Shown here: in pieces, positions 19,136-32,337 of the stretch
Position numbering within the stretch: the first letter of the stretch is position 1
How the letters are laid out: each line of letters starts with the position of its first letter
Source of the DNA: Nitrospirota bacterium
Lineage (GTDB): Bacteria; Nitrospirota; Nitrospiria; SBBL01; JAADHI01
Direction of reading: 5' to 3'
Assembly (NCBI GenBank): GCA_029261215.1
Contig: JAJDBT010000081.1
Coordinates: 1-64,000 of the forward strand
DNA length: 64,000 nucleotides
Program-made: the position numbers and the translations under genes
Notes under the pieces: model-generated
Seen by the model: the letters and a program-made list of their open reading frames with translations, nothing else
Database searches by the model: none
What the model was told of the DNA's origin: nothing

Positions 19136-19765
19136 TTAACCCGCTTTTCCTGAAACCTTCATTTCCTGTTCAACCCAGCGTGCCACTTGCGCCAGTCCGA
19201 TGCCCGTTTTCAGGTTTGTGAAAATCGTCGGATGGTTTTCCGGCTGATCGTGACGCATGCGCGCGGCATCCCGTTTCATCACGTTTAAATCGGCTCCGAC
19301 GTGAGGCGCGAGATCGATTTTGTTGATGACGAGCAGGTCGGATCGGGTAATGCCTGGCCCGCCTTTTCGGGGGATTTTGTCTCCCGCTGCAACATCAATG
19401 ACGTAAATGCTGCGATCCACGAGTTCCGGGCTGAAGGTCGCCGCAAGATTATCACCGCCGCTCTCGATAAAAAGCAGGGCCAAATGTGGAAAGGTCTGGG
19501 TCAGTTGATCAATCGCATGAAAATTACCGGAGGCGTCTTCCCGAATGGCGGTGTGCGGACAGCCGCCGGTTTCGACCCCGATGATACGGCTTTTTTCAAG
19601 TGCGCCTGCATTGATCAAAAATTCCGCGTCTTCCTGTGTGAAAATGTCGTTGGTCACGACCGCAAGATCGATGTGGTTTCTAAGTTCGAGGCACAGTTTT
19701 TCGATCAAGGCCGTTTTGCCGGAGCCGACCGGCCCGCCGACGCCAAAACGAATTGCTCTGTTCAT
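19136..19765 (-). CDS. ureG: Urease accessory GTPase UreG
   Basis: The protein has 209 residues. The start at 19765 follows GAGGAG by 5 bases and gives the canonical [18 protein letters not shown]; longer versions are not supported. P-loop GPVGSGKT is at 11-18, and the nickel-binding CPHT motif ([13 protein letters not shown]) and NKIDLAP G4 motif are present. UreG hydrolyses GTP to drive nickel insertion into apo-urease with UreD and UreF. It is the last gene of the leftward urea operon, 114 bp after ureF. UreE, which usually supplies nickel to UreG, is absent from the window. Confidence 0.96.
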
Positions 19766-19879
19766 ATTTTTCTCCTCATACGTTCCTCTTTGAAAATGGG
19801 AGCGTTCAATTGAAGGGTGCAAAGGATTTTTCTCTTCCACCCATATCCGTAAACCGTGAACTGTCAACATGCTTGTACC

Positions 19880-20590
19880 TTATGATTGAAACAAGCGAAC
19901 CGGCAAGCTTTCGTGCCGCATCGCCCCAATTTCGGCGGCAGGCATGAACGACATTGGCGCGCGGTCGGGATCCGTTGTTTTTATATGCGCTGCCCAGTGT
20001 TCATCTGTCCAGTTCAGCAGTCTGTGGATGATGTGTTGTCCCGCTTGCTGGCCCATTGGCAGCAAACGCAGCGCAGCCGAAACCTGTCCTGAAATCAATA
20101 TATAACAATAAGCGAAAATGGCGGCCTCGAATGGAATGCCCGCACCGAAGCCAACAAGGCCGAAGGCCACTGCGGCATCTCCTTTGAGTTGCCCGGACTT
20201 GAGTGCGGTTTGGCATCCTTGTGTCCAGGGGTTTGGATAAAGCTCTGAGGCGGTTTGAATCAGGCGGGAGGCGATCATTTTTCCGCCTTCTCGGGTTTCG
20301 CGCGGCAGACGCATGGCATAGGCCGACGCATCTATTTTTTGAAGCAGGTCGAGATCTTCCAATTGTCCGGCCTGATACGCCTGGCGAATTAACACTGTAT
20401 CGCAGGGAAAGACCTGATGCGTGATTTTTGCCTGAACCCAGTCGATGAGTGTGGCGTCATTGTGGACGTGGCGAGACTGTACGGCCGACTCCAGGCCAAA
20501 AGAATGGGAAAAGGCCCCGCTGGGAAAGAGGGTGTCGCACCACTGAAAAAGGGCAAGCAGTGCGCGCGTGGAAAGATGCAGTGCCGTCAT
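19880..20590 (-). CDS. ureF: Urease accessory protein UreF
   Basis: The protein has 236 residues and is all-helical. The UreF signature is visible (LFQWCDTLFPSGAFSHSFGLES near the start). It acts in the UreD-UreF-UreG complex as the activator of the UreG GTPase during nickel delivery. It begins 6 bp after the ureC stop. No strong ribosome-binding site precedes the ATG, so translation is probably coupled to ureC. The direct step from ureC to ureF skips the usual ureE position. Confidence 0.93.
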   Translation of the reverse strand: MTALHLSTRALLALFQWCDTLFPSGAFSHSFGLESAVQSRHVHNDATLIDWVQAKITHQVFPCDTVLIRQAYQAGQLEDLDLLQKIDASAYAMRLPRETREGGKMIASRLIQTASELYPNPWTQGCQTALKSGQLKGDAAVAFGLVGFGAGIPFEAAIFAYCYILISGQVSAALRLLPMGQQAGQHIIHRLLNWTDEHWAAHIKTTDPDRAPMSFMPAAEIGAMRHESLPVRLFQS

Positions 20591-20596
20591 GATGGT

Positions 20597-22315
20597 TTAA
20601 AACAAAAAATAGCGTTGCGCCATCGCTAAAATTTCAGCCGGTTCACATTTTAAAATCACCCCGTCGGCCTTGACTTCATAGGTGTCCGGGTTGACTTCCA
20701 TTCGGGGCAGTGCGGCGTTTAAGACCATGTTGCTTTTGCCGATGTTGCGGCAGTTTTTGACGGCGGCCAGTTTCTTGCGTAGGTGAAATGTTTCCCGGAT
20801 GTTCGCGTCGAGGGCGGCCTGTGAAACAAAGGTGAGCGCGTTTTCAAAGGGCACCCCGCCAAAGGCCCCAAACATGGGTCGATAACGCACGGGCTGGGGC
20901 GTCGGGATCGAGGCATTGGGGTCGCCCATCGCCGCGCTGAGAATCATGCCGCCTTTGATCACCAGTTCGGGTTTTACGCCAAAAAAGGCGGGTTTCCACA
21001 ATACGAGATCCGCGAGTTTTCCGACTTCGATCGACCCGACTTCGTGCGAAATCCCGTGGGCGATGGCCGGATTGATCGTATATTTTGCGATATAACGCCG
21101 GGCGCGCAGATTGTCATTTTCACCACTTTCGTCCGAAAGCCGCCCGCGCTGTTTCAGCATCTTGTCTGCCGTTTGCCAGGTTCGGATGATGACTTCCCCC
21201 ACCCGGCCCATCGCCTGTGAATCGGAAGCCATAATCGAAAAGGCGCCGATGTCGTGCAGGATGTCTTCCGCAGCAATCGTCTCCGGCCGAATCCGGGAAT
21301 CCGCAAAGGCCACGTCTTCCGGGAGCGAAGGATTTAAGTGATGGCAGACCATGAGCATGTCGAGATGTTCATCAATGGTGTTGATGGTGAAAGGCCGTGT
21401 CGGGTTGGTGGAGCCTGGCAGTACATTTGCTTCGCCGCAGAGCTTGATGATGTCGGGCGCATGGCCGCCGCCCGCGCCTTCGGTGTGATAGGTGTGGATG
21501 GTGCGGCCTTTAAAGGCCTCAATTGTGGATTCGACAAAACCGGCTTCATTGAGCGTGTCCGTGTGAATGGCGACTTGCACATCAAAGCGGTCGGCGACGG
21601 TGAGCGCGGTGTCGATGGTCGCCGGTGTGCTGCCCCAATCCTCATGCAGTTTCAGCCCCAGCGCGCCCGCGAGGATTTGTTCATCCAGCGCCGCCTCACT
21701 TGCACTGTTGCCCTTGCCTAAAAAACCGAGGTTGATCGGAAAACCGTCGGCGGCCTGTAACATTTTCCCGATATTCCAGACGCCGGGTGTACAGGTGGTG
21801 GCGTTGGTGCCCGTGGCCGGGCCGGTGCCGCCGCCGATCATGGTCGTGATGCCGGAAGTAATGGCCTCCTCGATTTGCTGAGGACAGATAAAATGAATGT
21901 GGTTGTCGATGCCGCCTGCGGTGAGAATCAAGCCTTCCCCGGCAATCGCTTCCGTGCCTGCGCCGACGATCATGCCTTCGGTGATGCCATTCATAATGTC
22001 GGGATTGCCTGATTTCCCGATGCCGCTGATGCGGCCATTGCGTATGCCGATGTCCGCTTTAAACACGCCGCTGTGATCGAGTACGAGGGCATTGGTGATG
22101 AGGAGGTCGAGAATGCCGTCGGCTGATGTGCCGTGTGTGGCTTGTCCCATGCCATCGCGTAAAACCTTGCCGCCGCCGAATTTGCTTTCGTCTCCGTAGT
22201 GGGTGAAATCTTTTTCGACTTCAATGATGAGATCGGTATCGGCGAGGCGCACGCGGTCGCCGGTGGTGGGGCCGAACATGTCGGCATAGGCCCGGCGTGT
22301 TATTTTTAAACTCAT
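20597..22315 (-). CDS. ureC: Urease alpha subunit UreC
   Basis: The protein has 572 residues, a normal length. Active-site residues are all present: His139 and His141 (DNHIHF), Lys222 that becomes carbamylated (LKLHEDWG), His251, His277, Asp365 (MASDSQAMG), and the mobile-flap Cys324/His325 (VCHHLNPS). It hydrolyses urea to ammonia and carbamate at a di-nickel centre in the cytoplasm. The start overlaps the ureB stop (ATGA) with GGAGG before it. The enzyme should be active, given nickel. Confidence 0.98.
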
Positions 22316-22683
22316 GGTGCCTCCGTTTTAAAAGAGCGTTCCGCCGCACGATTTAAAGCGGACTTCCGTTCAAAGCTCGAAGTCTCTCCATTGGTGAGTG
22401 CATTGAGGCCAAAGACCTTTTTCGCCCCGCCGAGCGTGACCAGTGTCACCCGTTTCAGTTCGCCCGGTTCAAAACGCACGGCGGTGCCGGAAGGGATATT
22501 CAGCCGCATTCCGAAAGACGCCTTGCGGTCGAAGGACAAAGCGCGGTTTGCCTCAAAAAAATGAAAATGTGAACCAACCTGCACCGGCCGGTCTCCCGTG
22601 TTTGTGACCTTCATTTCCAGGGTCTCCCGACCCACGTTAGCGGTAATGTCGCCTTCCGCTAAAAAATATTCACCAGGGATCAT
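22312..22683 (-). CDS. ureB: Urease beta subunit UreB
   Basis: The protein has 123 residues from the ATG at 22683, which follows GGAGG and begins [11 protein letters not shown] as in other UreB proteins. A longer frame reading back into the repeat element is not supported. The family block [13 protein letters not shown] is present as [16 protein letters not shown], followed by [17 protein letters not shown]. It is a structural subunit that supports the UreC active-site flap. It is separated from ureA by the inverted-repeat element at 22711-22832, an unusual gap because ureA and ureB normally sit only a few bases apart. Confidence 0.96.
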
Positions 22684-22710
22684 CTTAACCTCCAATTGGT
22701 GGTTTCTAAC

Positions 22711-22832
22711 TTCCCCCTTAAAAAAAGGGGGATTGAGGGGGATTTCGTGGAGTGGCAATAAATAATCACAAGTCGTGATCGAAAACCTTTAAAAGCAAAT
22801 CCCCCCTAGCCCCCCTTTAACAAAGTGGGGAA
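22711..22832. mobile_element. MITE-like element with ~35-bp terminal inverted repeats
   Basis: A 122-bp element has left arm 22711-22745 and right arm 22797-22832 that are imperfect inverted copies, both G-run/C-run rich (TTCCCC... at the ends and GGGGGATTT at the inner ends). The 51-bp centre has no coding capacity. The left arm is itself a hairpin. Elements of this look are common in some cyanobacterial and Nitrospirota-type genomes. It lies inside the urease operon between ureB and ureA. A related single arm occurs at 26253-26280. No clear target duplication is seen. Confidence 0.7.
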
Positions 22833-22838
22833 TAAAAA

Positions 22839-23141
22839 TTATTTAATCGGATCGTGAATGGTTACAAGTTTCGTGCCGTCCGGAAAGGTGCCCTCGACCT
22901 GTACGTCCTGAATCATCTCCGGAATGCCTTCCATGACATCATCGCGTTTTAAAATGGTTGCGCCGTAGCTCATCAGGTCCGAAACCGTCATGCCTTCGCG
23001 AATTTTTTCAAGGACTTCTGATGTGATGAGTGCAATGGCTTCGGGATGATTGAGTTTCAGTCCGCGCCCTTTGCGGTCGCGTGCGAGCTGCCCGGCCAAA
23101 TAGATCATGAGTTTGTCTTGTTCACGCGGGGTTAAGTGCAT
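22839..23141 (-). CDS. ureA: Urease gamma subunit UreA
   Basis: The protein has 100 residues, the normal length for bacterial UreA. It starts [20 protein letters not shown] and contains the conserved [21 protein letters not shown] and [20 protein letters not shown] blocks. It is the small structural subunit of the (UreABC)3 trimer. It is followed by the inverted-repeat element and then ureB, and preceded, 92 bp away, by a small unknown gene. Confidence 0.97.
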
Positions 23142-23233: not shown

Positions 23234-23587
23234 CTAATAAAGAAAGGTATTTGCAACCCGATAGTGTCCATCCTGTTCAATGAGGGTGAGTTCGTTCATA
23301 AATTCGTCCTCTGTTTTGCTCAGGCTTTGTTTCCAAATAATGCTGACCTTCTCTTTTTTTCGAAAAATCTCGACAAACTTTTTTTCTGAAAAATGTCCCA
23401 GCTCGTTTTGAAGCAGGGCGACCTGTTCCTCAAAGGCATCTTTTGTGACATAACCTTTAAGGTCTTCTGTAAAGTCACGGGTGTGTTTTTCGTAGTCGAT
23501 TTCGACAGTGCCCGCGATCATGTTCTGTATTAATGGTTCTGCAATGGCTAATATTTCTTCGTTGGATAGTGCTGAAAGCGGCGGCAT
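23234..23587 (-). CDS. Small unknown protein inside the urea operon
   Basis: The protein has 117 residues with no signal peptide. The N-terminal half is helical and acidic; the C-terminal half ends in a beta strand pair (ELTLIEQDGHYRVANTFLY), which recalls NTF2-like or DUF4019-type domains, though I cannot confirm a family. A purine-rich AAGGA lies 6 bases before the start, with GGAGG a little further up. It lies between urtE (53 bp) and ureA (92 bp), on the same strand, so it is almost certainly co-transcribed. The constant setting suggests a role in urea use, but nothing shows what it does. Confidence 0.65.
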   Translation of the reverse strand: MPPLSALSNEEILAIAEPLIQNMIAGTVEIDYEKHTRDFTEDLKGYVTKDAFEEQVALLQNELGHFSEKKFVEIFRKKEKVSIIWKQSLSKTEDEFMNELTLIEQDGHYRVANTFLY

Positions 23588-23640: not shown

Positions 23641-24345
23641 TTACACCGTTAAATGCTCTTGCACCGCTTCTTCGCTGAGGTCTTTTGTTGAGCCTTTCGA
23701 GATGATGGTGCCTTTTTCCATGACATAATAATTATCTGAGAGCCGCCATGCAAACTGTAAATATTGTTCGACCAATAAAATCGCCACGCCGGTGGCTTTT
23801 ATCTTATGAATGGCATCCTCGATTTCGTCAATAATCGAGGGTTGAATGCCTTCCGTCGGCTCATCCAAAAGCAGCAGTTTGGGTTTGGTGAGCAGGATGC
23901 GGGCAATGGCGAGCTGTTGTTGCTGCCCGCCGCTTAAATCCCCGCCTTTGCGGTGGAGCAGGTCTTTCAGGGCAGGGAAAAGCGCGTAGACTTCTTCCGG
24001 GACGGTATCAAGGTTTTTGCCCCGGGCGGCAAGGCCGAGGATCAAATTGTCCCGAACGGACAGCTGCGGAAAAATTTCCCGACCCTGCGGCACATAACCG
24101 ATGCCGCTTTGCGCGCGTTCGTCGGGCCGTCGATGGGTAAAATCATCCTGACCAAAAAGAATTTTGCCGGATTTTGGCTTGAGCAGTCCCACGATGCTTT
24201 TCAAAAGCGTGGTTTTCCCTACGCCGTTTCGACCCAAAAGACAGACGGCTTCGCCTTCCGCGACATTTAAATCGACATCCCGCAATATGAGGCTTTCGCC
24301 ATAGGCCACATTCAGTTTTTCGACCTTGAGCAGCGAACCTTTCAA
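23641..24345 (-). CDS. urtE: Urea ABC transporter ATP-binding protein UrtE
   Basis: The protein has 234 residues. Walker A is GRNGVGKTTLL, the ABC signature is LSGGQQQQLAIAR, and Walker B is KLLLLDEPTEG. The family is the LivF-like branch of hydrophobic amino acid/amide transporters. With UrtD it energises urea uptake through UrtB and UrtC. Its start overlaps the urtD stop (ATGA). The assignment to urea rests on the five-gene urt order and the flanking urease genes. Confidence 0.95.
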   Translation of the reverse strand: MKGSLLKVEKLNVAYGESLILRDVDLNVAEGEAVCLLGRNGVGKTTLLKSIVGLLKPKSGKILFGQDDFTHRRPDERAQSGIGYVPQGREIFPQLSVRDNLILGLAARGKNLDTVPEEVYALFPALKDLLHRKGGDLSGGQQQQLAIARILLTKPKLLLLDEPTEGIQPSIIDEIEDAIHKIKATGVAILLVEQYLQFAWRLSDNYYVMEKGTIISKGSTKDLSEEAVQEHLTV

Positions 24346-25091
24346 TGATCCCCCCGGCCGAGATACACTTCTTTGACTTTGTCGTGATTTTGTACCTCGT
24401 CCACCGTGCCTTCAAACAGTACCGTCCCTTCGTGCAATACGGTGACTTTTTCCGCAATTTGACGGACAAAGGCCATGTCGTGTTCGATGACCAGTACAGA
24501 CCGCTCTTTCGAAATTTTTTGAAGGAGGGCCCCTGTTTTTTCGGTTTCGTGATCTGTCATGCCAGCGACGGGTTCATCCACAAGCATGACCTTGGGCTCC
24601 TGCATCATGACCATGCCAATTTCCAGCCACTGTTTTTCGCCGTGTGAAAGCAGGCCCGCGATGTCCCCCTGTTTTTCTTGCAGGCCGATGGTTGCCAGCG
24701 TCTCGTGAATCTTGTCCCGTTGTACGGAAGTCAGCCCTTTGAAGAGGGTATTGAACACGCCTTTTTTGCGATTGAGCGAGAGTTCAAGGTTTTCAAACAC
24801 CGTGAGGCTGGTGTACACCGTTGGGGCCTGAAATTTCCGGCCGATACCGAGATTGGAGATCTCATCTTCATGCAGATGAAGCAGGTCGGTGTATTGCTCA
24901 AACACGACGCGGCCGAGCGTCGGTTTCACTTTGCCGCAAATCACGTCAAGCAGGGTGGTTTTGCCTGCGCCGTTCGGCCCGATGACAACGCGCAGCTCGC
25001 CGGGCGCCATCACAAAATTCAGGTCATGCAGAGCTTTGAATCCGTCAAAACTAACGGTCACCCCTTCCACATATAAAATTGACTGATCCAT
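24342..25091 (-). CDS. urtD: Urea ABC transporter ATP-binding protein UrtD
   Basis: The protein has 249 residues and is LivG-like. Walker A is GPNGAGKTTLLD, the signature is the UrtD-typical variant LSHGEKQWLEIGM, and Walker B is KVMLVDEPVAGM. The LSHGEKQ form is characteristic of UrtD as opposed to LivG. It pairs with UrtE. It is followed by urtE with a four-base overlap and preceded by urtC with an 11-bp gap. Confidence 0.95.
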   Translation of the reverse strand: MDQSILYVEGVTVSFDGFKALHDLNFVMAPGELRVVIGPNGAGKTTLLDVICGKVKPTLGRVVFEQYTDLLHLHEDEISNLGIGRKFQAPTVYTSLTVFENLELSLNRKKGVFNTLFKGLTSVQRDKIHETLATIGLQEKQGDIAGLLSHGEKQWLEIGMVMMQEPKVMLVDEPVAGMTDHETEKTGALLQKISKERSVLVIEHDMAFVRQIAEKVTVLHEGTVLFEGTVDEVQNHDKVKEVYLGRGDH

Positions 25092-25102
25092 TCAAATCCT
25101 GA

Positions 25103-26236
25103 CTAAGTGAGTTGTTTTCCTATTACAGGTTGTTTTTTCTTTCGCGATTTCAAAAGCGTCTTGAGTCTGCCAGAAACCTCCCACATTCCTTTGGGGAAAT
25201 ACAAGACGACTCCGATGAAGAGCAGACCTAAAAAGTACAGCCATAAATCAGGATAGTTACTCGTGAGAAAGCTGCGCGCCCAGTTGACGCCGATTGCGCC
25301 CAGAAGTGCGCCCACGAGTGTGCCGCGCCCGCCGACGGCGACCCATACGATCATTTCTATCGAGGGCAAAACGCCGATTTGTCCTGGCGTAATGATGCCG
25401 ACCTGTGGCACATACAAGGCCCCGGCGAGTCCCGCCAATGCGGCGGAAACCACAAAAACAAAGAGCTTGTAGCGCGAGGCCGAATACCCCGAAAAACGGA
25501 TGCGCCCTTCGTTGTCCCGAATGGCGATCAAGACTTTTCCCAGTCGGGAGCCGGTGATCCAGCGGCAAAGGAGAAAGGCCAGAATCAGGCAGATGCCGGT
25601 GGCGATGAACAGCACACGCTGGGTAGCGGCGTCGCTGAGCGGAAAGTCCAGGATTTTTTTAAAATCCGTCAGGCCGTTCGTGCCGCCGAGATTCATCGAA
25701 TTTTGATTGAACAAGAGCCAAACAGTCAGGGCGAGCGCCTGTGTGATGATCGAAAAATAGACCCCTTTGATCCGGCTGCGAAAGGTTAAAAACCCGAAGA
25801 CCAGCGCAAAGAGGGCGGGCACGGCCATGACCCCGACCATCGAAAAGAAAAAGCTTTTAAAGGGCTGCCAAAAGAGAGGCAGGCTTTCCAGCTGGTTCCA
25901 CACCATAAAATCGGGCAGGTCGCTTTGATAGGCGCCTTCCCCGCCAATGGAGAGCATGAGGTGCATGCCCATGCAATATGCGCCCAGTCCGAAAAAAATA
26001 CCCTGCCCCAAACTCAGGATGCCGGTGTATCCCCAGAGCAGGTCAATCCCCAAAGCGAGGATGGCGTAGGCCATGTATTTCCCTGCCGTATTCAGGTTGA
26101 AACTGCTCAAATAAAAGATGGAGTCTTTCGACGGAAGAAGGTTCATCATCAGCAAAGCCAGCCAGCAGCCTGTGATGATCAAGACCCATTTGAGGGTGTC
26201 CGTATTTCCTTTTTTTGAGTGTGTCAGAGAATTCAT
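25103..26236 (-). CDS. urtC: Urea ABC transporter permease UrtC
   Basis: The protein has 377 residues, LivM-like, with about 9-10 hydrophobic helices. The permease region DLLWGYTGILSLGQGIFFGLGAY near residue 65 and the coupling-helix region AIRDNEGRIRFSGYSASRYK are typical of UrtC. The C-terminus is very basic (RKKKQPV). It forms the inner-membrane channel with UrtB. A short repeat-like hairpin lies between it and urtB. Confidence 0.94.
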   Translation of the reverse strand: MNSLTHSKKGNTDTLKWVLIITGCWLALLMMNLLPSKDSIFYLSSFNLNTAGKYMAYAILALGIDLLWGYTGILSLGQGIFFGLGAYCMGMHLMLSIGGEGAYQSDLPDFMVWNQLESLPLFWQPFKSFFFSMVGVMAVPALFALVFGFLTFRSRIKGVYFSIITQALALTVWLLFNQNSMNLGGTNGLTDFKKILDFPLSDAATQRVLFIATGICLILAFLLCRWITGSRLGKVLIAIRDNEGRIRFSGYSASRYKLFVFVVSAALAGLAGALYVPQVGIITPGQIGVLPSIEMIVWVAVGGRGTLVGALLGAIGVNWARSFLTSNYPDLWLYFLGLLFIGVVLYFPKGMWEVSGRLKTLLKSRKKKQPVIGKQLT

Positions 26237-26252
26237 TTTTTATTTTTTTTCA

Positions 26253-26280
26253 CCTCCCCCTTTAAAAAAGGGAGGAATTT
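26253..26280. repeat. Solo arm related to the MITE-like element
   Basis: The segment contains CCTCCCCCTTTAAAAAAGGGAGG, a hairpin with the same C-run/T-A/G-run layout as the arms of the element at 22711-22832. It lies in the 57-bp gap between urtB and urtC. A single short match could be coincidence, so confidence is limited. Confidence 0.45.
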
Positions 26281-26293
26281 AGAAAACGGTTTC

Positions 26294-28024
26294 TTAGGAA
26301 TCAATGTGGCGTCCTTTCGCAGGGAAAAGCCCGGAGGGCCTTTTTTGAAGAAAAAGAATCACAAGTAATAAAATCGCCACTTTGGCGTAAATCGCCCCAA
26401 GTCCGGGTTCAAAGAGTTTGTTGAGACCGCCGATGCCAAAGGCCGCGCCGACCGTCCCAGCCAGTTTGCCTACACCGCCGGTGACAACGACCAAAAAGGA
26501 ATCCACAATATAGTTTTGTCCAAGGTCGGGTCCGACGTTTCCGATGAGGGTGAGGGCCGCGCCCGCCATGCCCGCGAGTCCTGCTCCGAGGGCAAAAGTC
26601 CAGGCATCGACACGTTCTGTGGCAATGCCCATGCAGGCGCTCATCTCTCTGTTTTGGGTGACGGCTCGAATTTTAAGCCCGATTGGGGAACGTAAAACCA
26701 ATAGATAAACGGAAGCGACTGCGATGACGCTGAGTAAAATAATAAAAAGACGGTTGTAGGGGAGTTGAATGCCAACGGCCAACCGCAGTCCGCCGCTGAG
26801 CCAGCTGGGGCTGGCGACATCGACATTGGCTGCGCCGAAAATCTGACGTACGCCTTGTTGTAAAATCAAACTGATCCCCCAGGTGGCGAGCAGGGTTTCC
26901 ATCGGTCGGCCATAAAGTTTGCGAATAATCGATTTTTCAAGCACCAGACCAAAGAGGGCCGCAATACAAAATGCAAGCGGAATGGCCAAAAAGAAATACA
27001 GTTCCTTTAGGCCGGGAGGCAGATAGGCCACAAAGAATTCCTGCATGATATAGGTGGTGTAGGCGCCCAGCATCATGAGTTCCCCATGCGCCATGTTGAT
27101 GACCCCCATGAGCCCGAAGGTGATGGCGAGCCCTAATGCCACGAGCAGTAAAATAGAACTGAGGCTGATGCCGCTAAAAATGGTTTCGACGGTGCGTGCC
27201 CAGACTTGCCATGCGGATATTTTTTGAATCGTATCCTGAATGGCGGCTTTTACCGCGATATCGTTTTCTTCTGCCTCGCCGCCATCGGGTGTTTTGATTC
27301 GGGCTTCCAGCGTCGGGATGGCGTCCATCGCGTGGATTTTGCCCAGGGTTTCAGCCGCTTGTTTTCGGATGGCGGGATCGGGATCGGTGAGCTGAATCAG
27401 ACCGATCGCCTCGGTCAGGGAAAAACGAACCCAGCGGTCTTTTTCCTGATTTAGCGCTTTGTCCAACATGGGCAGGGCTTCCGGATCGCCGGAGAGGCCG
27501 ACCTTGGTGGCGGCGGATTCCCGGATCGCGGCGTCGGCGCTAAAAAGTCGAAGCCGGTCGAGCATCGGCGTGATTTTGATGCGGAGTCGTCGGCTTAAGC
27601 GAATGGATTCAAGCTGGGCTTCCGGCAGAAAAAGAGGCTGTCCCTCTTTATTTTTCATGGGCGCGCCGCCATAAGGTTCCTGAACCCGATAGCCTGAAAT
27701 ATCGCCCTGATTGATCAATTCCCGTCCGATGACTACAGTGCGGACGCCATCGGGTTTCAGCCAAAGATAAAGGCTGCGTTCACGCAGGGTTTCGAGTATC
27801 GGCAAGACCGCTGGATCGCCGGATTCTCCCAGGGCAAATACAGCCGTTTCGACGACCTCCCCATCGGGATCGGCCAGGTTTAGGATGGCCTGTGCAAGCC
27901 TCTCCGGCACTGTGTTTTGTGCATCGGCACGGTCTGCGCAGAAAAAAACACCGGGAATGATCAGGCAAAGTGTCAGCACGGCAAAAGCCGTGCTGACACT
28001 GTTTTTGATTTGGAATCCGTTCAT
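26294..28024 (-). CDS. urtB: Urea ABC transporter permease UrtB
   Basis: The protein has 576 residues. A signal peptide (about 1-36) is followed by a periplasmic HEAT-like region to about residue 275 (repeated units such as VVETAVFALGESGDPAVLPIL and AIRKQAAETLGKIHAMDAIPTLEARI). A LivH-like permease with about 8 helices completes the protein. The extra N-terminal domain is the normal UrtB layout. GVINMAHGELMMLGAY and the LLATWGISLILQQGVRQIFG blocks are typical. It lies 9 bp downstream of urtA. Confidence 0.95.
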   Translation of the reverse strand: MNGFQIKNSVSTAFAVLTLCLIIPGVFFCADRADAQNTVPERLAQAILNLADPDGEVVETAVFALGESGDPAVLPILETLRERSLYLWLKPDGVRTVVIGRELINQGDISGYRVQEPYGGAPMKNKEGQPLFLPEAQLESIRLSRRLRIKITPMLDRLRLFSADAAIRESAATKVGLSGDPEALPMLDKALNQEKDRWVRFSLTEAIGLIQLTDPDPAIRKQAAETLGKIHAMDAIPTLEARIKTPDGGEAEENDIAVKAAIQDTIQKISAWQVWARTVETIFSGISLSSILLLVALGLAITFGLMGVINMAHGELMMLGAYTTYIMQEFFVAYLPPGLKELYFFLAIPLAFCIAALFGLVLEKSIIRKLYGRPMETLLATWGISLILQQGVRQIFGAANVDVASPSWLSGGLRLAVGIQLPYNRLFIILLSVIAVASVYLLVLRSPIGLKIRAVTQNREMSACMGIATERVDAWTFALGAGLAGMAGAALTLIGNVGPDLGQNYIVDSFLVVVTGGVGKLAGTVGAAFGIGGLNKLFEPGLGAIYAKVAILLLVILFLQKRPSGLFPAKGRHIDS

Positions 28025-28033
28025 GAAAATGAC

Positions 28034-29398
28034 TTATGCCTTTTTAAAGGTACCCTGATGATCGACCCAGTCACACCCTTTGTCGGGGCTGGTGTATTCG
28101 CTCCAGGGTTCCGGTTTGACGAGTCCTTTGGACTTCCAGATCACATCAAACTGGCCATTTTTGAGAATCTCCCCAATCAGGACGGGTTTGTGGGTGTGGT
28201 GGTTGCGCTCATCCAGTTTCACTTTCCCGCCCGGCGCGAGAAATTCCTGGCCGTAGGCGGCTTTACGCACGGCATCGACATCGGTGGTTTTGGCTTTTTC
28301 CACAGCCTGTTTCCAGAGATACACGCCAAAATAGGCGGCTTCGATGGGATCATCCGTCACCCGGTCTTTCCCGCCCGGCAATTTGTTTTTTTCGCAGTAG
28401 GCCTTGAAGTTGGCTACGAATTTTGTATTCTGCGGGGTTTTGACGGACTGATAATAATTCCATGCCGCCAAATGTCCGACGAGTGCCGAAGTGTCCATGC
28501 CGCGCAATTCATCTTCCGCGACGCTGAAGGCCATGATGGGCACGTCACCCGAGGTGAGACCCTGATTGGAAAACTCTTTGTAGAAAGGCACGTTGCTGTC
28601 ACCGTTAATGGTACTAATGACACAGGCCCCGCCGCCGCGTGAAAAGGCTTTGACTTTCTGGACGATGGTTTGATAATCCTGATGATGAAAGGGCGTGTAT
28701 TCTTCCTGAATGTCCTTTTCCGGTACGCCTTTGGCCAATAACATGGCGCGCAGGATTTTATTTGTCGTGCGCGGGTAAACGTAGTCTGTCCCCAGCAGGT
28801 AGAATTTTTTGTAACTGCCGCCGTCCTTACTCATCAGGTATTCCACGGCGGGGACGGCCTGCTGGTTGACCGCTGCGCCCGTATAAAAAACATTGCGAGA
28901 GCATTCTTCTCCTTCGTATTGCACGGGGTAAAAAAGCAGACCGTTGTTTTTTTCGTACACCGGCAAAACCGATTTTCGGCTAACTGAAGTCCAGCAGCCG
29001 AAGGTGACGGCGACCTTTTCCTTCAATAAAAGCTCTTTGGCTTTTTCAGCAAAGAGATCCCAGTTGGACGCAGGATCGACGACGACGGGTTCGAGTTTTC
29101 GGCCCATGACGCCGCCTTTTGCATTGATTTCCTCTACGGCCATTAAAACGACATCGCGCAGCGAGACTTCACTGATGGCCATCGTGCCGCTCAAGGAATG
29201 CAGGATGCCGATTTTAATCGGCCCTTTGCCTGTGTCCCCCCGTCCGATGCCGGGAAAACCCAGTCCACCGACCAGTCCGCTTGCGGCCAAGCCGAAAGCG
29301 GCGGTGGCGGAGCCTTTTAGAAAACTTCGCCGCCCGATCCCTTTGGGCTGTTTTTCTTCAATTTTCTGACTCATATCGTCCTTTTTTTTATCTGACAT
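28034..29398 (-). CDS. urtA: Urea-binding protein UrtA with twin-arginine signal
   Basis: The protein has 454 residues. The start at 29398 is preferred because AGGAG lies before it and a longer frame (to 29620) would run into ureD. The N-terminus is charged, then carries GRRSFLKG (Arg23, Arg24) and a hydrophobic stretch, a canonical Tat signal. The remainder is a type I periplasmic binding domain with UrtA hallmarks (GILHSLSGTMAISEVSLRD, EEINAKGGVMGR, FGCWTSVSRKSVLPVYE, LFYPVQYEGEE). It captures urea in the periplasm for UrtBCDE. Export in folded form via Tat is inferred from the signal; tatA and tatC lie 3.3 kb away. Confidence 0.95.
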   Translation of the reverse strand: MSDKKKDDMSQKIEEKQPKGIGRRSFLKGSATAAFGLAASGLVGGLGFPGIGRGDTGKGPIKIGILHSLSGTMAISEVSLRDVVLMAVEEINAKGGVMGRKLEPVVVDPASNWDLFAEKAKELLLKEKVAVTFGCWTSVSRKSVLPVYEKNNGLLFYPVQYEGEECSRNVFYTGAAVNQQAVPAVEYLMSKDGGSYKKFYLLGTDYVYPRTTNKILRAMLLAKGVPEKDIQEEYTPFHHQDYQTIVQKVKAFSRGGGACVISTINGDSNVPFYKEFSNQGLTSGDVPIMAFSVAEDELRGMDTSALVGHLAAWNYYQSVKTPQNTKFVANFKAYCEKNKLPGGKDRVTDDPIEAAYFGVYLWKQAVEKAKTTDVDAVRKAAYGQEFLAPGGKVKLDERNHHTHKPVLIGEILKNGQFDVIWKSKGLVKPEPWSEYTSPDKGCDWVDHQGTFKKA

Positions 29399-29435
29399 AG
29401 TTCTGCTCCTTTTTCTAAGTGGAATATAAGGTTGT

Positions 29436-30245
29436 TTAATACCTTCTGACTGGCGGAAGCATGCGTCCCAAAACAATTTTTCGAAACAAGGCCCAGAGTG
29501 TGGTGAAAAAATCCTGGATCTGTGGTGTGTTGTTTCCCAAAACACGGACAAATAATCCCCGTCGGGGAAGCAGGGAAACGCCCCATTCAAGGTTTTCCAT
29601 GACTGTTGACCGGAAGGCATGAAACAATTCTTTCAGTGGATCGGCGCCGCAACACACATAGAGTGATCCGAGATGCGTGTAACCCGCCATCACGCCGGGC
29701 GCGTTCACGGGCGTGATGGCGGGTTCGATTCGAAAACACTCTTTGGAGATCAACCCTTTGCCATCCCGGATTTGCATCCGGTTTTCATAAAAACGATATG
29801 AAAAGGATTCCCCGGCGGCAAGCCGACCCGGCCCCAGAATATCGCCCCAAAAGAGGGTCGCGTCATCTTCAAGAAATATGTCTGTTTCCTGATGAAATGC
29901 GGCTCCGGAAAACGGCAACAGCGGCTCCGTGAGGTATTCCAGCACAGATCCCTGAGAAAGCCTGAATTCAATTTTCTGTCTTGCTTCTCCGGTTTTTGCG
30001 GGATGTACCTTGGTTGCTGCAGGCATCATGACCAGCACTGCGGTTTCTTTTTTTAATTGGAGGCGGATATTCAGTTGGTCTCCTTCAAGTATCCCTCCCG
30101 TGGTGTTGAGCACATAGAGATGTGCGGGGGAATTGCCTTCGGGATACAAAGGCCTGAGTACTTTGAGCGGCGCCCGCTCGCGCAATGCGGTTGCGACCGT
30201 TTTTCCTTCACGCTGTTCAAAGTCAATTTCAAGCAATCCGTGCAT
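29436..30245 (-). CDS. ureD: Urease accessory protein UreD (UreH)
   Basis: The protein has 269 residues, the usual length. UreD hallmarks are the LNTTGGILEGDQLNIRLQL segment, MMPAATKVHPAKTG (family: TQAATKVYRS) and LPFSGAAFHQETDIFLEDDATLFWGDILGPGRLAAGE. It is the scaffold that binds apo-urease and channels nickel from UreG. Here it is the second gene of the operon, upstream of the transporter genes and far from ureF and ureG, so the accessory genes are split. The gap to urtA is 37 bp and to the porin gene 33 bp. Confidence 0.94.
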   Translation of the reverse strand: MHGLLEIDFEQREGKTVATALRERAPLKVLRPLYPEGNSPAHLYVLNTTGGILEGDQLNIRLQLKKETAVLVMMPAATKVHPAKTGEARQKIEFRLSQGSVLEYLTEPLLPFSGAAFHQETDIFLEDDATLFWGDILGPGRLAAGESFSYRFYENRMQIRDGKGLISKECFRIEPAITPVNAPGVMAGYTHLGSLYVCCGADPLKELFHAFRSTVMENLEWGVSLLPRRGLFVRVLGNNTPQIQDFFTTLWALFRKIVLGRMLPPVRRY

Positions 30246-30278: not shown

Positions 30279-31424
30279 TTAAATCTGAAACTGGAAGCCG
30301 AGTTTGACGATGTCGGCATCAGGGCCCGTTGCCGGATCATCCATGCTGTAGGTCAAGCTAATCCGCGCGTTATGACCATTGATGATGTGGCTGAGGGCAA
30401 TATCTGTACGTTTATGTTTGCCCGTAACCGCACCTTCATTTTTAAATTCCTGATAACGCACCATGGGTTGAAGCTGACCCGAAAGTGCGCCAGACCCAAG
30501 CTTGTTAGGAAACAGAAAACTGCCCAAGGCAAAATATCCATTGCCTTCAGACCCGTCGCCGGTCGTAGGGGCAAGGGCTTTCCCATCTCCGTCATAATCG
30601 TAATAGGCGCCTTCCAATGTTGCCGTCCCTGCTCCGCCGAGATTCTTTTCCAGAAGCAGATCTGCGTTCCAACCATTAAAGTCCCCAGGTGCGGCAGTTG
30701 TTCCGACTGCATTTTCCTGGGACATGGCAACAAGTCCGATGGCAAAAACGTCTTTTCCTCCGTAATAGGTGCTGCTGTTGTAGTATCCCGGTTCCGGGTC
30801 AAGTAAGTTGAGTGTTAAGCGACCCGCATAGAGCAGGCTGTCACTCTGGTTCGGTCCTGTCACAGAAGTCCCTGTGCCGTCAAATACACCGAATTGATAT
30901 TTAAACATGCCGCCGCCGACCTGTCCCCAAATGGCCAGTCCGTCGTCTCGTCCCGCAAAAATGGCTGGATATTTTTGAACAAAGGGAAAATCCCAGGCAT
31001 TCAGATAATAAGGGCCATCCAGGTTGGAGCGGTCACTTGGCGGCAGAAAACGTCCGACCCAGACATTGAACAGGTCGTTGAATGCGATTTTAATCACGGC
31101 ATCCAGTACGCGAATATGCTCTGAGCCTCCGGATTCGTAATCGGTGTTGAATTCAAAGGCCACATCTTCAAGGAGTTGTCCACTCATGTAGAGACGCATA
31201 TTTTCAAGCGAAAAATCTTTTCCGTAACTTGAGGAATTAGGTGCGCCGTCTTCGGTGAGGCTGATGCTGCTTTTGATGCCCATGCCGATACTGACGGATT
31301 GGTGTTCCCCGATTTTAATTGTGCCGCCCGCTTGGGCATTTGAAGGTAAAACAGCGAATACAATAAATGAACTGATCAGAAAGGTAGACAAAGTGAAAAG
31401 GAAGTTGTTTTTGTTTATTCCCAT
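30279..31424 (-). CDS. Outer-membrane porin, first gene of the urea operon
   Basis: The protein has 381 residues. An ATG at 31436 is directly abutted by AGGAG, too close to be used well; the ATG at 31424 lies 12 bases after it. A signal peptide ends near AQAGG. The mature part is a beta-barrel of the OprO/OprP/FmdC type (MRLYMSGQLLEDVAFEFNTDYES, IKIAFNDLFNVWVGRFLPPSDRSNL, final strand IVKLGFQFQI). Porins of this group accompany urea and short-chain amide use in other bacteria. Location at the head of the urea operon makes urea or short amides the likely substrate, which is inference. Confidence 0.82.
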   Translation of the reverse strand: MGINKNNFLFTLSTFLISSFIVFAVLPSNAQAGGTIKIGEHQSVSIGMGIKSSISLTEDGAPNSSSYGKDFSLENMRLYMSGQLLEDVAFEFNTDYESGGSEHIRVLDAVIKIAFNDLFNVWVGRFLPPSDRSNLDGPYYLNAWDFPFVQKYPAIFAGRDDGLAIWGQVGGGMFKYQFGVFDGTGTSVTGPNQSDSLLYAGRLTLNLLDPEPGYYNSSTYYGGKDVFAIGLVAMSQENAVGTTAAPGDFNGWNADLLLEKNLGGAGTATLEGAYYDYDGDGKALAPTTGDGSEGNGYFALGSFLFPNKLGSGALSGQLQPMVRYQEFKNEGAVTGKHKRTDIALSHIINGHNARISLTYSMDDPATGPDADIVKLGFQFQI

Positions 31425-31462
31425 TTTGATGATCATCTCCTTATTATTAAAAGCATTTGAGC

Positions 31463-31504
31463 AAAAAAAAATGCCATATCCCCAAAATAGAAGGGTTATG
31501 GCAT
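31463..31504 (-). terminator. Intrinsic terminator in the leader of the urea operon
   Basis: Read on the minus strand, ATGCCATA and TATGGCAT form an 8-bp stem, extended after an A-A mismatch by CCC/GGG, with a 9-base loop and a run of nine T. It lies between the promoter and the porin start, 39 bp before the start codon. There is no gene upstream on this strand close by, so it can only act on the operon itself, which suggests transcription attenuation. Confidence 0.75.
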
Positions 31505-31513
31505 CCTCGCCTG

Positions 31514-31584
31514 TTTACGGGGTCTACTGCACTGTAAACGACCGTAAATAAATTGTGTATTCTGTGTGTTTTTTGAACACAGAA
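31514..31584 (-). promoter_or_regulatory. Two-hairpin leader RNA preceding the attenuator
   Basis: Two stems precede the terminator on the minus strand. The first, 31560-31584, pairs TTCTGTGT with ACACAGAA and begins about at the predicted transcription start. The second, 31514-31548, pairs TTTACGG with CCGTAAA and continues inward as GTTTAC/GTAGAC around the loop AGTGCA. I do not recognise a known riboswitch class; the ACGR loops of guanidine-II RNAs are absent. A GGC/GCC helix between stem two and the terminator could compete with the terminator arm. Confidence 0.5.
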
Positions 31585-31591
31585 CGGGCGA

Positions 31592-31620
31592 ATCATAAAT
31601 GACCGATGCAGAGCTGTCAA
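31592..31620 (-). promoter_or_regulatory. Consensus sigma-70 promoter of the urea operon
   Basis: On the minus strand TTGACA (31615-31620) and TATGAT (31592-31597) are separated by exactly 17 bases. The -35 is perfect and the -10 has five of six consensus bases. The predicted start is near 31585, giving a leader of about 160 nt before the porin. No sigma-54 (GG-N10-GC) element is seen here. Confidence 0.8.
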
Positions 31621-31758
31621 GGTTTTTATGATGTTCAATTAGAATACTCCCCAAGCCCGGAAAGATGTTTGTCTGGAATCAATGAATGAGGTATTTTGTG
31701 TTGAAGTCGAAGTGGTTTTACGGAATCGCAGTTGAAAAGGTTTGTCTCTGAGGGTAAA

Positions 31759-32337
31759 ATGAATCCAGAACAAACCGGGTTGTTAATGCGGGTGGATATG
31801 ACGAAATCCTTTATTCAAAATATATGTTTCGCCCCAGGCTTGCTGACTGATTTAGACGAAATCATGGCCATTGAACGCGCATCATTTTCACATCCCTGGA
31901 CAGAAGGGATGGTGCTTTCCGAGCTTTTTGATAACCCCTTTGCCTATTCGACGGTGGTGCGAGAGCGGGATGAGAGTGAAATAATCGCATACCTTTTTGT
32001 GAGGGTGGTTCTGGATGAACTGCATCTTATGGATTTGGCCGTTCATTCCGCATGGCGAAAAAAGGGCATCGCAGAGACCCTGATTCAGCACGTATTCGCC
32101 ACGCTGGACAAACAAGGTTTGGAGAAGGTTATTTTAGAGGTACGTGCTTCCAATCTTCCTGCGCAGGGTCTTTATCGTAAACTAGGGTTTTATCAGGTCG
32201 GTGAACGACGTAAATATTATAGCCATCCGACTGAAAATGCACTTTTATTTCAAATGGATATTGGCGCAAACTCCGCTTTTTCAATGCAGGTGCTGATGCC
32301 CGAACATCAACAAACGCAGCTGTCCGAATATCCATGA
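31759..32337 (+). CDS. rimI: Ribosomal protein alanine N-acetyltransferase RimI
   Basis: The protein has 192 residues from the ATG at 31759, which follows GAGGG; a TTG at 31732 is less likely. It is a GNAT acetyltransferase with the RimI features IERASFSHPWTEGMVLSEL, an acetyl-CoA loop of R/Q-x-x-G-x-A type (WRKKGIAETLI) and EVRASNLPAQGLYRKLGFYQVGERRKYY. It acetylates the N-terminal Ala of ribosomal protein S18. It has about 40 extra residues at the two ends compared with E. coli RimI. Confidence 0.9.
   Translation: MNPEQTGLLMRVDMTKSFIQNICFAPGLLTDLDEIMAIERASFSHPWTEGMVLSELFDNPFAYSTVVRERDESEIIAYLFVRVVLDELHLMDLAVHSAWRKKGIAETLIQHVFATLDKQGLEKVILEVRASNLPAQGLYRKLGFYQVGERRKYYSHPTENALLFQMDIGANSAFSMQVLMPEHQQTQLSEYP

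Follow-up and report, generated by a model that had tools for sequence, protein, structure and literature searches.

A urea-operon leader of the Nitrospirota as a probable ANTAR-controlled transcription antiterminator

The leader of the urea operon in a Nitrospirota bacterium (genome G000; GenBank assembly GCA_029261215.1) is very likely a transcription antiterminator under the control of an ANTAR protein. The class can be named from the architecture of the leader, which has two small hairpins with six-nucleotide loops, AC/GU pairs closing the first loop, and an overlap of the second hairpin with an intrinsic terminator. The features of the leader in the window, by which is meant the whole 64,000-nucleotide stretch analysed (contig JAJDBT010000081.1, positions 1 to 64,000), are as follows.

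31620-31615, minus strand: -35 hexamer TTGACA (consensus scan)
31597-31592, minus strand: -10 hexamer TATGAT (consensus scan), spacer to the -35 hexamer 17
31585-31559, minus strand: hairpin 1, the 5' hairpin, arms UUCUGUGUU/AACACACAGAA (folds)
31548-31514, core 31539-31522, minus strand: P1, which is hairpin 2 (folds, element alignments)
31511-31500, minus strand: P2, putative antiterminator mini-hairpin GGC[GAGGAU]GCC (folds, alignment)
31504-31463, minus strand: intrinsic terminator, stem AUGCCAUA/UAUGGCAU with an inner stem (folds)

A sequence-only reading of this DNA had described a consensus promoter, a two-hairpin leader of about 160 nt and, 39 bp before the porin gene, an intrinsic terminator with a run of nine T, and all three were borne out. 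The promoter TTGACA-17-TATGAT (31620-31592) matches 11 of 12 consensus positions and is the best of four sites in a scan of 3 kb; since shuffled sequence yields 4.0 sites of any quality in the same scan, it is the quality of the match alone that is notable. In G001-G004 and G007, similar TTGACA boxes 5' of the element were picked out by eye. Transcription would start near 31585, and the resulting leader, about 160 nt on the minus strand, folds into the two hairpins (31585-31559 and 31548-31514) followed by the terminator. The predicted fold has an energy of -45.3 kcal/mol over 127 nt (z = -6.2), which was equalled by none of 200 dinucleotide shuffles. In the terminator an outer stem of 8 bp is separated by a mismatch from an inner stem of about 4 bp, and nine T follow at 31471-31463; this terminator was absent from the list given by a simple terminator scanner. 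The run of T ends 39 bp 5' of the porin ATG at 31424, a start that is kept in relatives (the ORF table places it at 31436). Two points had been missed: the competition between the terminator and a third small hairpin (31511-31500), and the lack of conservation of hairpin 1. No counterpart of hairpin 1 was seen by eye in the leaders of relatives, and it lies outside the conserved match in four of the five relatives found by nucleotide search, a search at E up to 10 that gave many chance matches and from which G001-G005 (G004 being of the same genus as G000) and a second copy in G000, on C77 (E 0.049), were kept. Hairpin 1 is specific to G000 and falls outside the conserved element.

The core of P1 in the window is GUUUAC[AGUGCA]GUAGAC, with the hexaloop at 31533-31528 carrying A at position 1 and G at position 4 and closed by A-U and C-G pairs. 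The hexaloop of P2 (31508-31503) has G at both positions, and the GCC of P2 doubles as the 5' arm of the terminator. When the growing transcript was folded, P2 was present in the best fold at lengths of 88-110 nt, and by 115 nt the terminator had taken its place. The cost of enforcing P2 in computed folds was 12.9 kcal/mol, suggesting that P2 would need a protein to persist.

The operon downstream lies on the minus strand in the order porin, ureD, urtA-E, a small gene and the urease genes.

31424-30279, minus strand: porin (Porin_O_P; ExtI-like), first gene of the operon, start conserved in relatives
29436..30245, minus strand: ureD, urease accessory protein (PF01774)
28034..29401, minus strand: urtA, urea ABC transporter binding protein (TIGR03407)
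23641..28024, minus strand: urtB, urtC, urtD and urtE (TIGR03409, TIGR03408, TIGR03411, TIGR03410)
19136..23141, minus strand: ureA, ureB, ureC, ureF and ureG (ureC by NCBIfam; ureA, ureB, ureF and ureG named from sequence and gene order)

The start of urtA is probably at 29401, ahead of a Tat-like signal (GRRSFLKG), where the ORF table gives 29620. The small gene between urtE and ureA (23234-23587, minus strand) encodes 117 aa and is unnamed. An Rfam match of 91 bits to the 5' ureB sRNA (RF02514) lies at 21865-22162 on the plus strand, antisense to the 5' part of ureC; this match may reflect conservation of urease coding sequence rather than an antisense RNA.

A search with the porin protein over 58 related genomes matched 26, of which 12 (G000 included) belong to the same order, and all 12 of these matches were strong. 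In each of these 12 genomes the element was found 5' of the orthologous porin. UreD follows the porin in 10 of the 11 relatives, the contig of G015 ending inside the porin gene, and UrtA comes next in nine of the 11, the contigs of G015 and G016 being cut. The earlier reading had taken the region for an attenuator of the urea operon, had asked whether the leader is conserved in related species and had seen no match of the hairpins to riboswitch classes, guanidine-II included; the first interpretation was right, the element is kept throughout these 12 genomes, and Rfam gave matches at chance level only. An association of the element simply with the porin is contradicted by a covariance-model search of 80 named porin loci (run together with 10 further loci), in which eight of the 80 matched at E <= 0.001 and all eight were from Nitrospirota. 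At proteobacterial and planctomycete porin loci no match was found in the porin leader, the best match there (L198, E 0.0057) lying downstream. Six Nitrospirales porin leaders matched the model weakly (E 0.045-0.91), yet P1 and P2 could be read in them by eye; the porin-urtA locus of G032 gave no covariance-model match.

Evidence that P1 is maintained as a structure came from an alignment of 13 elements. Its six core pairs show standard pairing in 97.4% of 78 cells and four of the six change on both sides, with a covariation score of 0.494 against 0.205 in shuffles (none of 500 as high), and sliding the pairing partner destroys this signal. When P1 and the terminator helix are taken together, 93.7% of 143 cells pair in nine elements. 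These alignments were built from pieces selected because they contain the element, a choice that favours pairing, and the controls answer this in part. The nitrogen-gene elements in G000 and its relatives were held out of the alignment. The A-U and C-G closing pairs of P1 are invariant (13/13), and G occupies loop position 4 of both P1 and P2 in all 13 elements. Position 1 is A or G across elements; G1 in P2, as in the window, is also found in several relatives, and the conserved form of P2 can be written GGC[RANGNN]GCC. The relatives of family f5 have G1 in P1 and a P2 loop of just 5 nt. It may be that any purine at position 1 suffices. The linker between P1 and P2 is 2 nt when the long P1 is formed and about 11-12 nt if the 6-bp core alone forms, and the loop-to-loop spacing is near constant across elements at about 18-20 nt. 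A plain leader terminator, or a remnant of one, that sets a constant basal level would need neither the compensatory changes in P1 nor the conserved loop G4. Ribosome-mediated attenuation through a leader peptide could draw on two short frames near the 5' end (GTG 31580, 18 codons, and CTG 31582), but neither frame has a ribosome site or a stretch of any regulatory amino acid. Taken as a pair, these explanations are extremely unlikely.

A conserved, structured leader with a terminator ahead of an operon is also what would be expected of a small-molecule riboswitch, in which a ligand such as urea, guanidine, glutamine or nickel would bind directly to the leader RNA and so gate the terminator. 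Rfam searched over the whole window at gathering scores gave no match at the leader, and over 31400-31760 at E up to 10 it gave only matches of chance quality (mir-96, 3.8; AbsR25, 6.6; Phe_leader, 8.2), so that no family, the guanidine, glutamine and metal classes included, rises above chance. P1 consists of one hairpin and lacks a multi-helix pocket, and little is conserved beyond the AC/GU pairs, the loop G4 and the arm shared by P2 and the terminator. The substrates of the genes behind the elements also differ (urea, ammonium, nitrate, nitrite, glutamine), which would suit a general nitrogen regulator. Tandem copies of the element, which occur in G007 and before amtB in the f5 family, do have parallels among some riboswitches, but overall a riboswitch is very unlikely. 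Assignment to the ANTAR class, in which a protein binds the RNA and there is no aptamer, means that urea, guanidine or nickel need not bind the leader.

The tandem copies bear in addition on a third alternative, that the terminated transcript of about 120 nt is itself the product, a trans-acting small RNA that regulates other messages. Two elements with terminators stand before the porin-urea operon of G007, about 25 nt apart behind one promoter (L058, G007:C74:14868-15069, minus strand), and the paired elements of the f5 amtB leaders are similarly spaced; in such an arrangement the second element is reached solely by read-through of the first. A small RNA would agree with the strong terminator and with a copy in G005 that lies between citrate synthase and ileS. 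The elements are nevertheless placed consistently 20-130 bp before operon starts, and what is conserved corresponds to an ANTAR target and not to a long unpaired seed. This explanation is accordingly highly unlikely, and the preferred reading remains that of an ANTAR antiterminator.

The motif was also scanned for by itself. A strict scan, which required four pairs and AC/GU in P1, three pairs in P2, an overlapping terminator and at least six T (criteria that were set post hoc), had its sole match in the window at 31539, with two matches in 60 Markov-shuffled windows. A looser scan gave six other matches elsewhere in the window, showing that the motif alone proves little; the case is carried by conservation, covariation and context. 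Across the 58 genomes the exact two-hexaloop pattern had 91 matches against 21 for the reversed pattern, and many single matches must be due to chance. One of the three pattern matches in G000 (C33:28718) was set aside as it lacks a terminator. Covariance-model matches in G113 and G093, and others on C19 and C3, were rejected because they resemble plain terminators or coding sequence.

A covariance model built from nine elements was run over 146 genomes of the class, and 35 of these had a match at E <= 1. In G000 it found the urea leader, the C77 copy and a copy on C49. The C77 copy (L052, G000:C77:1172-1090, minus strand) is a strong match and precedes an orphan gene of 146 aa with a receiver-like start and no Pfam match; a homologous arrangement is present in G002. 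The C49 element precedes nadE-glnA (E 0.007). A further element, on C22, was missed by the model and found with a looser scan; 102 bp separate it from a gene that reads as a sigma54 activator, behind which come a porin, amtB and PII. The amtB and glnA elements of G000 are irregular: the P1 loop has 7 nt or the P1 stem 3 bp, P2 is preferentially drawn by the program with a tetraloop, and the glnA element departs from the AC/GU closing pairs. In other genomes elements stand before amtB-PII (G019, G042, G045, G060, G134), sigma54 activator-porin-amtB (G006), nrtA-like genes (G042, G045), nadE-glnA (G011), a molybdopterin oxidoreductase-like gene with nirB (G024), and PII-like and narK-like genes (G005, G006). 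At two loci (L143 and L139, in G041 and G100) the element is followed by a sigma54 activator and then an nrtA-like gene, and here RNA antitermination is apparently stacked on sigma54 control. In the f5 family tandem elements precede porin-amtB-PII (G011 L244, G013 L242, G014 L243), and a pattern scan found the same tandem pairs in G015, G016 and G017. Some of these gene names were obtained by database search and the remainder were read from sequence. Exceptions include the G005 copy, which closely follows citrate synthase and has ileS 228 bp further on (L053, G005:C73:18362-18279, minus strand), an element with a cluster of circularly permuted ATP-grasp type 27 bp downstream (L134, G011:C7:287917-287829, minus strand), and elements before genes without an assigned role. 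The element is thus not specific to urea, being found also before ammonium, glutamine, nitrate and nitrite genes.

A candidate for the protein partner was found in 43 of the 58 genomes, each with one ANTAR match. The sole ANTAR gene found in G000 (G000:C76; PF03861, E 1e-23) encodes a GAF-GAF-ANTAR protein of 421 aa. Eleven RNA-contact residues have been named for EutV (PMC8934654), and alignment to that protein (6wsh, with a two-residue chain offset removed) showed that seven of them are kept in the G000 protein (R142, K143, K149, E160, M172, N173, R175), two are changed conservatively (K147R, Y164F) and two are otherwise changed (R168Q, R177T). The ANTAR domain of NasR can likewise be aligned to the G000 protein. 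The GAF region has a partial NifA-like score of 98 bits, far below the cut-off of 529 bits. The GAF domains of NifA can bind 2-oxoglutarate. In two other families than that of G000, the ANTAR gene lies close to nitrogen genes: it adjoins porin-urtABCDE in G057; in G034 the next gene after it is nadE, and nirB, narK and porin-amtB lie within 17 kb. The model matched at E <= 0.05 in 19 ANTAR-bearing genomes and in none of the 10 listed of the 15 ANTAR-less genomes (G008 had a match at 0.58), a distribution that again speaks against a riboswitch. If all 43 ANTAR genomes are assumed to have been searched, Fisher's p is 0.007, although the genomes are related and not independent and the co-occurrence should be taken as a trend rather than a test.

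A mechanism consistent with these data would begin with RNA polymerase starting at 31585, after which P1 with its AGUGCA loop would fold and then P2, GGC[GAGGAU]GCC. By default, when no active regulator is present, the terminator would take the 3' arm of P2 and stop transcription before the porin. When active, the GAF-GAF-ANTAR protein (G000:C76) would hold both hexaloops as a dimer, P2 would persist and the terminator would be blocked, and read-through would then allow the porin, UreD, the Urt transporter and urease to be made. The same protein would control the nitrogen regulon (glnA, amtB-PII and others). We infer both the binding of this protein to the urea leader and the sign of the response. 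The signal is probably nitrogen limitation, perhaps sensed as 2-oxoglutarate through a GAF domain. We give roughly equal weight, for and against, to a wider proposal for the class Nitrospiria (Nitrospira-like nitrifiers and Manganitrophaceae), under which one GAF-GAF-ANTAR protein would be a general nitrogen regulator that releases terminators before urea, ammonium, nitrate, nitrite and glutamine genes and does not act at promoters, tandem elements would be two gates in series at the most tightly held operons, and the hexaloops would accept G or A at position 1.

The choice between urea, ammonium and nitrate as nitrogen source is little known in nitrifying and manganese-oxidising Nitrospirota, of which few have been cultured. 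With an RNA element and a candidate protein partner both named, the control of nitrogen uptake becomes testable through one protein and a handful of leaders, open to study in a laboratory host or in vitro, and ANTAR control, if true, would account for the terminators in leaders of urea and ammonium operons across the class. The diversity of its members suffices for a covariance model where no Rfam family matches, and the natural tandem elements and G1 loops allow published rules of ANTAR recognition to be tested. ANTAR targets before urea transporters have already been predicted, in a covariance search that placed PII, ammonium and urea transporter, nitrate/nitrite and glutamine genes behind such elements (Ramesh et al., 2012). 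The main text of that paper does not contain the name Nitrospira, the terms ANTAR and antitermination are absent from the main text of a 2025 comparative paper on the Nitrospirales (PMC12342949), and literature searches on ANTAR with Nitrospira, Leptospirillum, urea and ammonium transporter, largely confined to papers outside subscription, found no paper on this regulon. A class-wide ANTAR nitrogen regulon in the Nitrospiria is therefore possibly undescribed.

The closest comparison is with the EutV-controlled eut leaders of Enterococcus faecalis. A EutV target has been described as two small hexaloop hairpins in which A1 and G4 are required and P2 overlaps the terminator, and the AC/GU closing pairs of P1 are sequence-specific in that system (eutP) (PMC3369931). 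The paired 6-nt loops, G4, AC/GU on P1 and a P2 3' arm inside the terminator are common to those leaders and to the window element, and most of the RNA-contact residues of EutV are kept in the G000 protein. The EutV rule of A1 in both loops is departed from in the window element, which has G1 in P2; in the crystal structure of EutV, G4 stacks on Tyr164 and A1 makes no specific contact (PMC8934654). The inter-hairpin linker is 5-12 nt in E. faecalis, longer than the 2 nt that follow the long P1 in the window, where the target is a urea operon. EutV is a REC-ANTAR response regulator, whereas the G000 regulator is GAF-GAF-ANTAR. The targets of NasR (nasF, nitrate) and AmiR (amiE, amides) share the EutV-type hairpin pair and likewise stand before nitrogen-acquisition operons (PMC3369931), although NasR employs a NIT domain with nitrate and AmiR a pseudo-receiver with AmiC in place of the GAF-GAF arrangement. 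The regulons predicted by Ramesh et al. (2012), for example in Desulfotomaculum, comprise several elements per organism before nitrogen genes, as is the case here, where the regulon is traced across a class of uncultured Nitrospirota in which each genome encodes one GAF-GAF-ANTAR protein.
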